Shown here: positions 23,645 through 49,286 of the stretch, in pieces | How the letters are laid out: the number at the start of each line of letters is the position of its first letter | Position numbering within the stretch: the stretch's first letter is position 1 | Origin: Archangiaceae bacterium | GTDB lineage: Bacteria > Myxococcota > Myxococcia > Myxococcales > Myxococcaceae | Assembly: GCA_016879935.1 (NCBI GenBank) | Contig: JAACJQ010000307.1 | Span: 1-64,000 of the forward strand | Length of the DNA: 64,000 nt | Direction: 5' to 3' | The notes under the pieces: model-generated | Seen by the model: only the letters and a program-made list of their open reading frames with translations | Told to the model about the DNA's origin: nothing | Database searches by the model: none | Translations under genes and position numbers: made by a program

Positions 23645-23711
23645 ACGGCACCCGGAAACGACGAAGCCCGAAGTGCCGGCCCCGTGAGGCAGGCAACTTC
23701 GGGCGTTTGAG

Positions 23712-23783
23712 AGGCGGCACCCGGATTCGAACCGGGGGATGAGGGTTTTGCAGACCCTTGCCTTACCACTTGGCTATGCCGCC
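23712..23783 (-). tRNA. tRNA-Cys (anticodon GCA)
   Basis: The 72-base gene folds as a complete cloverleaf. The acceptor arm GGCGGCA pairs with TGCCGCC. The anticodon stem AGGGT/ACCCT closes the loop CTGCAAA with anticodon GCA. The T arm is CCCGG-TTCGAAT-CCGGG. The discriminator base is U, the key identity element for cysteinyl-tRNA synthetase. CCA is not encoded. It lies between the SpoIID gene (same strand, 67 bases downstream) and the divergent acyl-CoA dehydrogenase gene. Confidence 0.97.
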
Positions 23784-42906: not shown

Positions 42907-42950
42907 TTGCAATGTGAAGTGCGTGTCGGTATTTCCCGCGCCGCAATGTG
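42907..42950 (+). promoter_or_regulatory. Candidate promoter and repeated GCAATGTG upstream of the M36 protease
   Basis: The 230-base divergent gap is locally AT-richer than its surroundings. TTGCAA at 42907 and TATTTC at 42930 are spaced 17 bases apart, a modest sigma-70-like match (4/6 and 3/6). The octamer GCAATGTG occurs twice, at 42909-42916 and 42943-42950, in the same orientation and 34 bases apart, which could mark an activator or repressor site. Both observations are weak on their own. Confidence 0.22.
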
Positions 42951-42987
42951 GGGCTGTGGAGCAGCCCTTCCGCCACCAGGAGCCATC

Positions 42988-45900
42988 ATGAACACACCGC
43001 TCGCCACTCGACTGTCGATCGCCGTCGCTGCCCTTTGCAGCACGGTGGTGCAGGCGGCTCCCGATGCGTTCCTGTCTCGTGGCGAACGCCGTGAGTTGGT
43101 CTCGCCCGAGACGTTGTCGATTGATGCGCGGCAAGCGTTCGCGAACGGCTTCATCTCATCGACCGAGCCGCGCCTCGGCGTACCCACGTTCTTCTGGGCG
43201 GGCCGTCCGCCTGCGGGAGCCCTCACGCCGCGCGACATGGGTCTCTCCGCCGAGCAGGTCGCGCGCCGCACGTTGTTCACGCACGCCGAACTCTATCGTG
43301 GCGACCGCACGCGGTGGGCCGAGGCTCGCCTGTCGAACCTGCACGAGCTGAACGATCAGGGAGCCGTGATCGCTTCGTTCCAGCAGGACATCGGAGGCGT
43401 GCGCGTCTTCCGCGACGAGGTGAAGGTCGCGATGACGAAGGACTATGTGGTGGTCGCGATCGCCGGCTACCTCACGCCTGAGACGAAGCGCCTGGGCAGC
43501 TGGTCGCTCACGCCGTCGACCGCCGCAGCCTCTGCGGTGAGCATGATGACGGGGCGGGGCGTCGAGGCGTCTGCGCTCAAGCCCATCGCCTTCAAAGACG
43601 GCTACCAGCTCTGGCAGCTCGGTGATGAGCCGACGCCGGTGCGCGGCCGCCGCGTCTGGTTCCCCACGCCCGACGGTCTCGAGCCCGGCTACTACGTCGA
43701 GATCGAGCTCAACGAAGGCGAGACCGACTCGCGCTATTTCAGCTTCGTCATCTCGGCGCGCGACGGGCAGGTGCTGTTCCAGAAGAACCTCACCGCTGAC
43801 GCGAGCTTCAAGGTGTGGGCCGAGGCAGGCGGCATCGGGCTTCCCTCCGACGCCCCGTCTGGCACTTCGCCGACGCCGCACCCCGCTGGCACGCCGAACC
43901 AGTTCCAGCCGCCCTACGTCGCGCCCGAGCTGGTGACCCGCGAGTACGGCCCCATCAGCACGATGGACCCCTGGCTCGCGGCGAACGCGACGCGCACCGA
44001 AGGCAACAACACGTTCACGTACATCGACGCCGCGCGGCCCAATGGGTTCGGCGCAGGCGACGTGGCGCCCACGCCCAACGGAGACCCCGACGCGGGCGTG
44101 CTCGTGTTCGATCGCACCTACGACCCGCTGCAGAACCCCGACGTGAGCGCCGAGCAGCGCATGGCCGCCGCGACGCAGCTCTTCTACGACATCAACTTCC
44201 TGCACGACTGGTACTACGACCGCGGCTTCGACGAGCGCTCGGGCAACGCGCAGACCTCGAACTTCGGGCGCGGCGGCATCGAGAACGACCCCATCAACGC
44301 CGAGGGCCAGGACAACTCGGGCCGCAGCAACGCGAACATGTCGACGCCTGCCGACGGCTCGCGCCCGCGCATGCAGATGTACATCTTCACGGGCACGTCG
44401 ACCGAGCGCCTCAGCTACAACGGCGCCAACGTCGCCGCGAACGGAGCCGCCTTCGGCCCGCAGACATACAACGTCACTGCCGAGGTCGTGTACGTGAACG
44501 ATGGCGACCCGTCGGGCATGGGCGGCTCGGTGAACGACGGCTGCCAGGCGAGCTTCATGGTGCCGGTGATGGGCAAGATCGCGCTCGTCGATCGCGGCAA
44601 CTGCACCTTCGTGCAGAAGGTGCAGATCGCGCAGATGAACGGCGCGCTCGGCGTGATCATCGCTGACAACACCACCTCGCCGCAGCCGCCCGAGCTCGTC
44701 GGGTCTCCCATGCCGCAGACGTTGATTCCGGCGATGTCGCTCACGCGCACGGCGGGCACCACGCTCAAGAACGCGGTAGCCAACGCGCCGATCACGGTCA
44801 CGCTCTTCCGCAACGCCACCACCGATCGCGACGGCACCCTCGACAACGGCATCATCGCGCACGAGTGGGGCCACTACATCTCGAACCGGCTCATCGGTGA
44901 CGGCAACGGGCTCTCGGCCGTGCAGTCGTCGGGCATGGGTGAAGGGTGGGGCGACTTCCACGCGATGCTGCTGATGGTTCGCGCCGAAGACATCAACGTG
45001 CCGTCGAACGCGAACTGGAACGGCACCTGGGCGGTCGGCGGCTACACGACGTCGGCGACTGCAGCCGACGGCCATTACTACGGCGTGCGTCGCATCCCCT
45101 ACACGGTGGACTTCGCGAAGAACGGCCTGACCTTCAAACACATTCAGCGCGGCGTCGCGTTGCCGATCGTTCCCACCGCGTACGGCCTCGATGGCTCGCT
45201 CAACGCCGAGGTGCACTCGACCGGTGAGGTGTGGTGCACGATGTTGTGGGAGGCGTACGTCGCGCTGCTGCGTGACAGCCCGCGGCTCACCTTCGCCCAG
45301 GCGCAGGACCGCATGATGCGGTACCTCGTCGCGGCCTACAAACTGACGCCGATGATGCCGACCTTCGTCGAGGCTCGCGACGCGCTGCTCGCCGCGGCCG
45401 TGGCGCGTGACCCCCAGGACTTCGCGCTCATCTGGGGCGCCTTCGCCCGCCGCGGCATGGGCATGCTCGCGACCGCGCCCGATCGTGACGCGTCTGACAA
45501 CCGGCCCGCGGTCGAGAGTTTCGTGGTGGGCAACGCGCTCGCGATCACCGACGTCACCATCGATGACTCGACGATGAGCTGCGACAACGACGGCGTGCTC
45601 GACACCGACGAGGTCGGCAAGGTGAACGTCACCGTGAAGAACGTCGGCGTCGGCCCGCTCATGGGCACCACCGTCACGCTCTCGACGACGTCGACGGGCC
45701 TCTCGTTCCCCTCGGGGGCGATGGTGACCGTGCCGATGACGCAGCCGTTCGGCTCCACCACGGTGTCGGTGCCCGTCACGCTGCGCGGTGTGCGCGGCTT
45801 CCAGGGCGTGGTGATCACCGTCGCCGCGAACGATCCCTCGCTCGCGATGGCTGGCCCGATCACGAAGGAGTACCGCACCCGCCTCAACAGCAACGTTCGC

Positions 45901-47175
45901 CCCAACGGCACCGCGACCGACGACGTCGAAGCGCAGATGTCGCGTTGGACGACCGGCAGCGATCCCCGGTACTCGCAGGGCGCTGACTGGCGCATCTCGG
46001 CCAACTCGCCCACCTCGCACTGGTGGTTCGGGCCGAACCCCTCGGCGCCTGCCGACAACTACCTCATCTCGCCGCCCCTCGTGGTCGGCACCGGGCCGTT
46101 CACGCTCACCTTCAAGCACCGCTTCGACTTCGAGGCCGACGCGACGACGTTCTACGACGGCGCTGCCCTCGAGATCTCGACCGACGGCCGCACGTGGACC
46201 GACCTCGGCGCGAACGCGATGCCCGGGTACACCGGCGCGTTCCCGAACCAGACGACCAACCCGCTGCGAGGCCGCCGCGGCTACGCCGGCAAGAGCGTCA
46301 ACTACCCGACGTTCAACACCGAGCGCGTCGACATGGGCACGATGTACGCGGGGCAGACGGTGCGGGTGCGGTTCCGCATCGGCTCCGACGACGCCTCGGC
46401 CGTGAAGGGCTGGGAGGTCGACGACATCGCCTTCACTGGCCTCACCGATCTGCCGTTCACCAGCGTCGCGCCCGACCCGAACACCTGCTCGAACAACCGC
46501 GCGCCCACGCTGTCGCCCGTGATGAACCTCACCGTTCGTGAAGGCGACGTCGTCTCGCTCACCGGCATGGGCACCGACCCCGATGGCGACGCGGTCACGA
46601 TTCTCTTCGTGCAGCGCGAAGGCCCGCTCGTCGATCTCAACATGGGCTCGTTCGTCGCGCCGTCGGTCGACACCAACACCCAGCTCGCCTTCGACGTGAC
46701 GGCCAGTGACGGCGCGCTCGAGTCGATGCCCCAGCGGCTGGTCGTCACGGTCGTCGATGGCAGCGGCGCTCCCACCGTGATGGCGCCGCCCTCGCTCGAG
46801 GTGATGGAGGGCCAGGCCAGCAGCGTGACCGCGACGGCCTTCGACCCGCAGGGCGACGTCGTCTCGTTCTCGTGGAAGCAGGTCGCCGGGCCCACGATCA
46901 TGCTGCGCGACGAGACGAGCGACACCGTGAAGTTCACCGCGCCGCCCGTCAACGCCGACGTGGTGGTGGTGCTCGAGGTGGTGGCGAACGACGGCAAGGT
47001 CGACTCGTTGCCGGCGCGCGTGGAGATCACCATTCGTGACGCCGGCCTCGCCCCCGTCTCGGACACGGCGGGCAAGGTGCCGACCGGGTGTGTCGGGTGC
47101 TCCACCGGTATCGACTCGCTCGCCGTGCTCGGCCTGGTGACCCTGCTCGCCCGGCGGAGGCGCACCGCGCCCTGA
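42988..47175 (+). CDS. Secreted M36 (fungalysin-type) metalloprotease with PA insert and C-terminal anchor tail
   Basis: The 1395-residue protein has a Sec signal peptide (cleavage after VVQA), an FTP-like propeptide (about 50-280) and an M36 catalytic region. The zinc motif HEWGH is at 625-629, with the third ligand region GMGEGWGDFHAM after it. A protease-associated (PA) domain is inserted at about 495-568 (GKIALVDRGNCTFVQKVQIAQ). Beyond the catalytic part come a jelly-roll-like region and two Ig/cadherin-like repeats (about 1170-1360). The end, GCVGCSTG then a hydrophobic stretch and RRRR, resembles a MYXO-CTERM sorting tail. A ribosome binding site CAGGAG precedes ATG 42988. Likely role: extracellular protein digestion or predation. 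Confidence 0.92.
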   Translation: MNTPLATRLSIAVAALCSTVVQAAPDAFLSRGERRELVSPETLSIDARQAFANGFISSTEPRLGVPTFFWAGRPPAGALTPRDMGLSAEQVARRTLFTHAELYRGDRTRWAEARLSNLHELNDQGAVIASFQQDIGGVRVFRDEVKVAMTKDYVVVAIAGYLTPETKRLGSWSLTPSTAAASAVSMMTGRGVEASALKPIAFKDGYQLWQLGDEPTPVRGRRVWFPTPDGLEPGYYVEIELNEGETDSRYFSFVISARDGQVLFQKNLTADASFKVWAEAGGIGLPSDAPSGTSPTPHPAGTPNQFQPPYVAPELVTREYGPISTMDPWLAANATRTEGNNTFTYIDAARPNGFGAGDVAPTPNGDPDAGVLVFDRTYDPLQNPDVSAEQRMAAATQLFYDINFLHDWYYDRGFDERSGNAQTSNFGRGGIENDPINAEGQDNSGRSNANMSTPADGSRPRMQMYIFTGTSTERLSYNGANVAANGAAFGPQTYNVTAEVVYVNDGDPSGMGGSVNDGCQASFMVPVMGKIALVDRGNCTFVQKVQIAQMNGALGVIIADNTTSPQPPELVGSPMPQTLIPAMSLTRTAGTTLKNAVANAPITVTLFRNATTDRDGTLDNGIIAHEWGHYISNRLIGDGNGLSAVQSSGMGEGWGDFHAMLLMVRAEDINVPSNANWNGTWAVGGYTTSATAADGHYYGVRRIPYTVDFAKNGLTFKHIQRGVALPIVPTAYGLDGSLNAEVHSTGEVWCTMLWEAYVALLRDSPRLTFAQAQDRMMRYLVAAYKLTPMMPTFVEARDALLAAAVARDPQDFALIWGAFARRGMGMLATAPDRDASDNRPAVESFVVGNALAITDVTIDDSTMSCDNDGVLDTDEVGKVNVTVKNVGVGPLMGTTVTLSTTSTGLSFPSGAMVTVPMTQPFGSTTVSVPVTLRGVRGFQGVVITVAANDPSLAMAGPITKEYRTRLNSNVRPNGTATDDVEAQMSRWTTGSDPRYSQGADWRISANSPTSHWWFGPNPSAPADNYLISPPLVVGTGPFTLTFKHRFDFEADATTFYDGAALEISTDGRTWTDLGANAMPGYTGAFPNQTTNPLRGRRGYAGKSVNYPTFNTERVDMGTMYAGQTVRVRFRIGSDDASAVKGWEVDDIAFTGLTDLPFTSVAPDPNTCSNNRAPTLSPVMNLTVREGDVVSLTGMGTDPDGDAVTILFVQREGPLVDLNMGSFVAPSVDTNTQLAFDVTASDGALESMPQRLVVTVVDGSGAPTVMAPPSLEVMEGQASSVTATAFDPQGDVVSFSWKQVAGPTIMLRDETSDTVKFTAPPVNADVVVVLEVVANDGKVDSLPARVEITIRDAGLAPVSDTAGKVPTGCVGCSTGIDSLAVLGLVTLLARRRRTAP

Positions 47176-47400: not shown

Positions 47401-48216
47401 ATGCGCCGCCTCCTCGTGACTTCGATCGTTTCCATCTCCGTCTTCGGCGGGTGTTTCTTCCCCGCTGATCGTGGCCAGCTGCTCGAAGGCCGCGTCGACA
47501 AGCTCTCTGACGAGAACAAGAAGCTCAAAGCGGCTTTGTCCGAGACGCAGGGCAAGCTCGACGACACGACGGCGCAGCTGAAGACGGCCCTCGAGCAGCT
47601 CGATCAGGCCTCGCGCACCACCGGCGCCAACATCGGCGTGAAGGTCGACAGCGCGATTCAAGACGTCGCCGCGCTCCGCGGGCAGATGGAGAGCTACCAG
47701 TTCAAGATCACCGAGCTCGAGTCGCGGCTTTCGGCTTCTGAGAAGACGGCCGCTTCGAACCCCACGCCCTCGAAGGCCGACGAGCCGAAGAAGGAAGAGC
47801 TCAAGCGGCCCGACGACCCGAAGGAGTTCCTCAAGCTTGCCGACGAGAAGGCGAAGGCTGGCGAGAACGATCTCGCGAAGAAGCTCTACGCCGAGTTCTT
47901 CAAGAAGTGGCCGCGCGACGAGCTCGCTGGTGACGCGCACTTCGGGCTCGGCGAGGTGCACTTCCTCGAGTCGAAGTGTCGCGAGGCGCTCTACGAGTAC
48001 GGCAAGGTGATTCAGGACTTCTCGAAGTCGAAGTCGGCGCCCATGGCGTACCTGCGCTCCGCCGACTGCTTCAAAGAGCTGAAGATGATGGACGAGGCGA
48101 AGCTCGCGCTGAACGAGCTGATCAAGCAGTACGCGAAGACCGAGCAGGCGAAGCTGGCGAAGACCCGGCTGGCCGAGCTCGAGAAGAAGCCGGCTCCCAA
48201 GGGAGGCAAGAAGTGA
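47401..48216 (+). CDS. CpoB/YbgF-like coiled-coil TPR lipoprotein
   Basis: The 271-residue protein has a lipoprotein signal with lipidated Cys18 (SVFGGC). A long coiled coil follows (about 30-120, DKLSDENKKLKAAL and onward), then a linker and a TPR region (about 140-265, KKLYAEFFKKWPRDELAGDAHFGLGEV cut into three repeats). This is the layout of YbgF/CpoB, which links Tol-Pal and peptidoglycan synthesis. No tol or pal gene is adjacent, so the assignment is by architecture only. ATG 47401 gives the signal; the frame continues open upstream. The 225-base gap before it includes a weak hairpin (AATTC/GAATT, 47178-47193). The next gene starts inside its stop (GTGA). Confidence 0.82.
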   Translation: MRRLLVTSIVSISVFGGCFFPADRGQLLEGRVDKLSDENKKLKAALSETQGKLDDTTAQLKTALEQLDQASRTTGANIGVKVDSAIQDVAALRGQMESYQFKITELESRLSASEKTAASNPTPSKADEPKKEELKRPDDPKEFLKLADEKAKAGENDLAKKLYAEFFKKWPRDELAGDAHFGLGEVHFLESKCREALYEYGKVIQDFSKSKSAPMAYLRSADCFKELKMMDEAKLALNELIKQYAKTEQAKLAKTRLAELEKKPAPKGGKK

Positions 48217-49286
48217 GAGTGCTCAGCCTGTCGCTGTTGCTCGCGTTGCCCGTGCTGGCCGCGGCGCCCAAGCAGCTCACCATCGCGTACACCGGAGACG
48301 TGGGCGGCGAAGTCGCGCCCTGTGGGTGACGCGCGAACCCAACTGGCGGTCTGGCCAGACGAAAGACAGTGCTGAACACGCTGACGGGCAAGCCGCTCGT
48401 CATCGACTCCGGAAACGCCCTGTTCCGGACGTTGGGTGGTGCGTCTGACGAGGACAAGCGACGCGCGTCGTTCGTGCTCTCGACCATGGGCGCGCTGGGC
48501 ACCAACGTGCTCGGCGTCGGCCACCGCGATCTGTCGGCGGGCCCTGAGTTCCTGATCGCCGAGGCGAAGAAGGCGAACGTGCAGCTCGTGTCGACGAACC
48601 TCGAGCTCGAGGGCAAGCCTGCCTTCCCGAAGTCGCTCGTCGTCGAGAAGAACGGCGTGAAGGTCGCGGTGCTGTCGGTGACGGGGCTCGGTCCCGTGCC
48701 CGGCGTGATGGGCCTGATGGGCACCGCGCAGCTGCCCGCGCTTCTGGCCGAGCTCAAGAAGCTGCCTGCGCGCGACCTCACCATCGTGCTCTGCACCTCG
48801 GGCTACGAAGAGGCGATGGCGCTCGCGGGTTCGCTCGAGGCCTCGGTCGACTTCGTCATTCAATCGGGCGAGTTCCGCGGAACGGTGCCGCCGCAGAAGG
48901 TGAAAGACCTGTTCCTGCTCGCCTCGGGGCAGCGTGGGCAGGCGGTCGGCAAGCTCGAGCTCTCACTCGGCAAGACGAAGGGCGCCTTCGCCGATCTGAA
49001 CGAAGCCGCGCGCGATCAAGAGCTGCTCACCAACCTCGAGACCCAGCTCAAGTCGGTCGACGAGCGGCTCAAGCTCGCGAAGGATGCCGAGGGCAAGAAG
49101 GCGCTCGAGACGCTCCGCAAAGACATGAAGGCCCGGCGTGACGAGCAGGCGAAGCGGCTCACGAAGGCCGTCGGGGGCCGAACGCTGAAGCTCGACTGGT
49201 TGATGCTCGGGCCGGACGTGAAAGACGACCCCGCGCTCAAGGCCGAGGTGTTGAAGATCGAGCCCAGCTACGAAGGGCTGCACTGA
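48213..49286 (+). CDS. Metallophosphatase-like selenoprotein (in-frame TGA read as selenocysteine)
   Basis: The frame opens at GTG 48213, after GGGAGG, with a signal peptide (LSLSLLLALPVLAAA). It reads LTIAYTGDVGGEVAPCG, then TGA at 48327-48329 (codon 39), then RANPTGGLARRKTVLN in the same phase, and stays open to 49286. UshA-like metallophosphatases carry PCGC-x3-P-x-GGLARR at this point, so TGA stands exactly at a conserved Cys, giving Cys37-Gly38-Sec39. Downstream sequence keeps family features (VIDSGNALF, GALGTNVLGVGHRD, VAVLSVTGLG) and normal codon use. A SECIS-like hairpin follows. The usual metal ligands are eroded (SGN, GHRD), so a redox or metal-binding role is as likely as phosphatase activity. 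Predicted 357 residues, periplasmic. Without read-through only a 38-residue peptide or a truncated protein would form. Confidence 0.85.
48327..48358 (+). promoter_or_regulatory. UGA selenocysteine codon and bacterial SECIS-like hairpin
   Basis: After the TGA (48327-48329) a perfect five-base-pair stem CTGGC (48343-48347) / GCCAG (48354-48358) closes the six-base loop GGTCTG. The loop begins 18 nt after TGA. From memory, the SECIS of E. coli fdhF has the same GGUCU loop and the same spacing. The codons here (CCA, ACT, GGT, AGA, CGA, ACA) break the strong G/C third-position habit of the neighbours. The rare AGA at 48357 supplies the two bases that pair with CT of the 5' arm, which a CGN codon would not. 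The stem is shorter than in fdhF and I see no lower stem. Confidence 0.75.

Follow-up and report, generated by a model that had tools for sequence, protein, structure and literature searches.

A short UshA-like selenoprotein with a Cys-Gly-Sec motif, predicted from an in-frame TGA in myxobacterial genomes

The window analysed here comprises 64,000 nucleotides of contig JAACJQ010000307.1 from an Archangiaceae bacterium (assembly GCA_016879935.1). It includes two overlapping genes, the second of which forms a single frame of 358 codons with TGA at codon 39 and at the terminus only (Table 1). The encoded product has 357 residues when a selenocysteine (Sec) at position 39 is counted, and the motif around this codon reads PCG-U-RANPTGGLARR. 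The start codon is GTG; it is preceded by AGGGAGG and overlaps the stop of the gene before it (GTGA). These findings agree with the original prediction, which had described one TGA in an otherwise open frame, in coordinates, in phase on both sides of the codon and in motif. With translation table 11 alone, the longest ORF downstream of the TGA starts at GTG 48369 and encodes 305 aa, so automatic annotation could easily mis-start the gene. Upstream of the pair, positions 42907-47175 (+) encode a large secreted M36 (fungalysin-type) metallopeptidase with a PA domain, whose C-terminus, GCVGCSTGIDSLAVLGLVTLLARRRR, by eye resembles a MYXO-CTERM-type sorting signal.

Table 1. Features at the predicted selenoprotein locus (window coordinates)
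Feature	Position	Strand	Basis
CpoB/YbgF-like TPR lipoprotein gene, overlapping the start of the selenoprotein gene	47401..48216	+	conserved upstream partner
UshA-like PCGU selenoprotein gene (predicted), short form	48213..49286	+	conserved TGA, relatives, structure model
Cys37-Gly38-Sec39 (CxU), proposed redox site	48321..48329	+	alignment and model; redox role inferred
In-frame TGA, codon 39, read as selenocysteine (PCG-U)	48327..48329	+	alignment and genome comparison
SECIS-like apical hairpin, CTGGC-GGTCTG-GCCAG	48343..48358	+	conserved loop and stem

The TGA is widely conserved. A search across 60 relatives showed orthologues with one TGA in most close genomes. The alignment that the original prediction had proposed as a check was restricted to the 29 N-terminally complete sequences; in it, 27 sequences have TGA directly after PCG and the other two have TGC. 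The window protein shares 71% identity over residues 1-357 with a relative from the same genus, and the similarity is unbroken across the TGA. Together, the shared codon and the continuous similarity exclude a chance TGA. The TGA form occurs in Myxococcus xanthus, M. vastator, Archangium, Hyalangium, Pyxidicoccus and Anaeromyxobacter and, outside the phylum, in one Marinimicrobia bin.

A survey of 195 genomes of the phylum links this codon to the selenocysteine machinery. A clear TGA orthologue, defined by E <= 1e-100, is found in 83 genomes, every one of which contains a tRNA-Sec; an orthologue with TGC only is found in four (G018, G027, G111 and G130), none of which has a detectable tRNA-Sec (Fisher p = 4.5e-7, a value that ignores the relatedness of the genomes). 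This association strongly supports the central claim of the original prediction, selenocysteine at codon 39. The tree needs five changes between TGA and Cys, and well-supported branches force four of these; because the six Cys rows include two paralogues, some of the changes lie outside the orthologues. The clearest case is G130, a closed genome with TGC that lacks tRNA-Sec and selB and whose selA is reduced to a 23-bit fragment. In the sister genome, G131, TGA occurs together with tRNA-Sec, selA and selB. The selA fragment of G130 (contig C1, 572732-572881, -) is possibly a remnant of recent loss of the Sec trait. Among the other Cys genomes, G018 is a draft with no tRNA-Sec detected, yet with selA and selB present, and its missing tRNA may be a draft gap. 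Two further drafts (G014 and G030) contain TGA-bearing fragments, and tRNA-Sec was not detected in them. As the Cys forms show, Sec is dispensable in this protein.

Several genomes hold additional copies. Beside the TGA copy, G103, G104, G105, G135, G138, G144, G149, G154 and G160 have another one whose frame contains no internal stop. In two Pyxidicoccus sequences (L075 and L083) the second copy is the Cys form, so Sec and Cys versions coexist, and two Archangium paralogues (L067 and L070) have HCGC replacing PCGC.

The genome from which the window comes encodes the components needed to insert Sec: tRNA-Sec (72.3 bits), selA (571 bits), selD (386 bits) and selB (298 bits, on a contig that ends just past the matched part). 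Thus, the four genes whose presence had been proposed as a check are all found. The circumstances named as counting against the prediction, namely a genome without sel genes, homologues without a Cys at this column, and a sequencing error, were each tested, and none of them held. The sole tRNA of the window itself is a tRNA-Cys (GCA) at 23711-23783 (-).

Just 3' of the TGA lies a hairpin with the apical loop GGTCT (GGUCU in the RNA). Each of the 38 distinct GGL-type sequences with TGA has this loop at a distance of 21 nt, counted from the first base of the TGA to the start of GGTCT, and the loop of E. coli fdhF occupies the same place. Within the frame, this loop needs GGT for a glycine that is free to use any codon, and GGT accounts for only 9.4% of Gly codons in these genes; the Cys forms have GGG, GGC or GGA at the loop position, and GGTCT is absent from them. 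Stem pairing is 86.5%, compared with 83.0 +/- 0.8 in shuffles and at most 41% when the stem is slid, and four sequences have exchanged T-A for G-C on both sides of the stem. One relative (L015) has a shifted hairpin register and a 5-nt loop, and the spacing from TGA to loop differs in L092 and L093. These two sequences, from Chloroflexi bins (about 5060), are PCGU proteins with shorter spacing (PCGURPPKGGVARR) and a GGTGTG loop, possibly a further CxU subfamily.

Energy-based and family-based searches were less favorable. The folding energy of the window hairpin sequence is no better than that of shuffles (z 0.08), minimum free energy being uninformative in such GC-rich sequence; a search of Rfam around the TGA at a permissive E-value reported no SECIS family; and RNAalifold retained only 4 pairs of the hairpin. 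The SECIS check proposed earlier is thus answered positively by the conserved loop and stem and negatively by folding energy and by Rfam. The features expected of a bacterial SECIS, a hairpin just 3' of the UGA with a G in the apical loop, are recognized here through conservation and not through energy.

The protein has a signal peptide (residues about 1-18), a metallophosphatase-fold domain and, in the structure model (mean pLDDT 88.5), a long helical hairpin at residues 262-317. The model agrees with the earlier description of the first 38 residues as a signal peptide plus one strand, and the signal peptide and the conserved C37 and U39 support that of an exported protein with a CxU motif. 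A Pfam search of the window protein gave no domain above cut-off. The model, however, matches the N-terminal domain of UshA, CD73 and SoxB with Z scores of 28-29 (UshA 29, SoxB 28.4), and it displays the calcineurin-like fold of the UshA/5'-nucleotidase group, as had been predicted. For UshA, CD73 and the T. thermophilus 5'-nucleotidase, the likeness lies in the N-terminal metallophosphatase domain, with Z 29 and an rmsd of 2.5-2.9 over about 264 residues; unlike these enzymes, the window protein lacks most metal ligands and the C-terminal nucleotide-binding domain, and it would contain Sec. SoxB, a thiosulfohydrolase with protein-bound sulfur as its periplasmic substrate, shares the fold but differs in being a two-domain, di-metal hydrolase and in having no CxU.

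The predicted Cys37-Gly38-Sec39 follows strand 1, in the loop that carries D-x-H in metallophosphatases. The window protein lacks the complete set of di-metal ligands (D-x-H, GD, GNH, H and GH-x-H), the first motif being judged by eye. In alignment with the T. thermophilus 5'-nucleotidase, GD has become GN, GNHE has become GxRD and SHLG has become AAVP, and histidine occurs only twice in the protein, as His104 and as the C-terminal residue, His357. Within the first metal motif Asp29 is invariant, and early-branching members retain DAGD. Judged by their place in the sequence, the conserved residues, which include D29, E33, C37, U39, R50, D65, R105 and D106, lie close to the former active site, C37 and U39 being among the invariant residues of the alignment. 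Model and alignment together support the assignment of the fold to the N-terminal domain of the 5'-nucleotidase/SoxB group of calcineurin-like phosphatases, with most metal-binding residues gone. The earlier term "metallophosphatase-like" therefore fits the fold but probably not the chemistry.

The original prediction had presented the gene as a probable new selenoprotein. As a new family this does not stand: UshA-like CxU selenoproteins were counted in 2008 in Global Ocean Sampling data (PMC2398784), were listed again in 2022 and 2026 (PMC9312934, PMC13188914), and correspond to NCBIfam NF041198 and NF049981 (PMC13188914). The best family match of the window protein is NF041198 (UshA_like_PCGU, COG0737 CxU; E 3.6e-45), but the 154.5 bits that it reaches lie below the cut-off of 275. 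Scores of short-form orthologues range from 131 to 182 bits, none of the 60 relatives exceeds the cut-off, and members above it are held by 5 of the 195 genomes of the phylum. Like NF041198 members, the short form has PCG[C/U] followed by GG..R, the same domain order to about profile position 375, a degenerate metal site, and exchange between Sec and Cys. Since true members also look degenerate at the metal site, this degeneracy belongs to the wider family. Unlike them, the short form falls below the cut-off, is paired with a CpoB-like gene and lacks the C-terminal haem region; its matches end at profile position about 375 and leave the remainder (about 376-519) unmatched.

CxxCH motifs are present in the true NF041198 members examined and in a 541-aa paralogue of the window's own genome. 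Cytochrome_C554 was found in both long proteins tested (L099 and L142) and was not found in the Myxococcus xanthus orthologue (L081) or the window protein. L142 is the window genome's long paralogue (G000 contig C86, 1635-3260, -); it has PCGC and not Sec, with the Cytochrome_C554 haem domain at its C-terminus. NF049981 (UshA-like selenoprotein family 2) also combines a Cys/Sec pair with a UshA-like N-terminal domain, but its reported motif is CxxU, here CxU, and the window protein reaches only 37 bits of the required 140. A literature search, incomplete in its coverage, found no paper on the myxobacterial short form or on Myxococcus selenoproteins. What is novel is the short variant: about 357 aa, below the cut-off, without a haem domain, with metal ligands largely lost, and with a CpoB/YbgF-like neighbor.

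This neighbor is constant. Wherever a Myxococcota orthologue has sufficient sequence 5' of it, the preceding gene encodes a CpoB/YbgF-like TPR protein, in the Cys lineages too; such a gene is absent beside the Cys paralogues of Pyxidicoccus. From gene order, the CpoB-like protein is a possible physical partner of the selenoprotein.

The reading that we consider highly probable is that of an exported UshA-like CxU selenoprotein, in which UGA 39 specifies Sec by way of a SECIS element and a degenerate phosphatase fold carries a Cys-Sec redox pair. UGA 39 would be decoded by the genome's own SelA, SelB, SelD and tRNA-Sec, aided by the hairpin just downstream. The product is almost certainly an exported selenocysteine protein, judging from its sequence, and Sec decoding of codon 39 is strongly supported, firm to the limit of what sequence evidence can give. 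Cys-Gly-Sec would be the present active center, performing thiol/selenol redox chemistry in the periplasm, a role suggested by the motif, the lost metal ligands and the haem domains of the longer relatives. Since those relatives have the haem domain in the same chain, the short form may draw its electrons from a separate cytochrome or carrier.

Other readings of the TGA have little in their favor. Under standard translation the gene falls into a piece of 38 residues and an independent ORF of 305 aa, as would be expected if a nonsense mutation or a sequencing error had split a former Cys-type gene; yet the TGA is retained in 83 genomes, with both flanks conserved, and tracks the presence of tRNA-Sec, so that the chance of a broken gene is negligible. 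Conservation of the TGA across genera refutes it. The UGA might instead be read through by another route, such as a near-cognate tRNA or a regulatory stop, to give another residue or a mixed product. Bacterial Sec insertion is often incomplete, making some 38-residue product likely, but in the closed G130 genome the change from TGA to Cys accompanies the loss of tRNA-Sec, selA and selB, and the SECIS loop is fixed in TGA forms only; we regard this route as very improbable.

The alternatives that accept Sec concern its function. The fold similarity to UshA, CD73 and SoxB (Z 28-29), the invariant Asp29 and the DAGD of early-branching members would suit a selenoprotein that is still a metallophosphatase or a thiosulfohydrolase-like hydrolase (UshA/SoxB-like), with CGU in a modulating or structural role. 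This is quite unlikely given the three altered motifs relative to the T. thermophilus enzyme, the presence of His104 and His357 as the only histidines, and the lack of a C-terminal substrate domain. CxC and CxU motifs can also bind soft metals, and the longer relatives carry haem domains, so Cys-Gly-Sec could be a binding site for a metal or some other ligand, as in a metallochaperone, with no thiol/selenylsulfide cycling; the constant neighbor, however, is a TPR lipoprotein, and we hold such binding to be unlikely. A bolder extension of the redox reading, to which we assign a low probability, is that a metal-free, Se-dependent pseudo-phosphatase acts with the CpoB-like protein (Tol-Pal, cell-envelope division machinery) to place the myxobacterial envelope under selenol redox control.

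The short-form selenoprotein is kept in most of the Myxococcaceae/Archangiaceae genomes examined, and at current curated cut-offs it is missed, including in Myxococcus xanthus, which is genetically tractable. The four lineages with Cys in place of Sec, one of them represented by a closed genome with a Sec-keeping sister, constitute a natural experiment on the need for Sec. Finally, metal ligands have been lost next to a Cys-Sec pair that is conserved, suggesting that a phosphatase fold has been converted into a redox protein.
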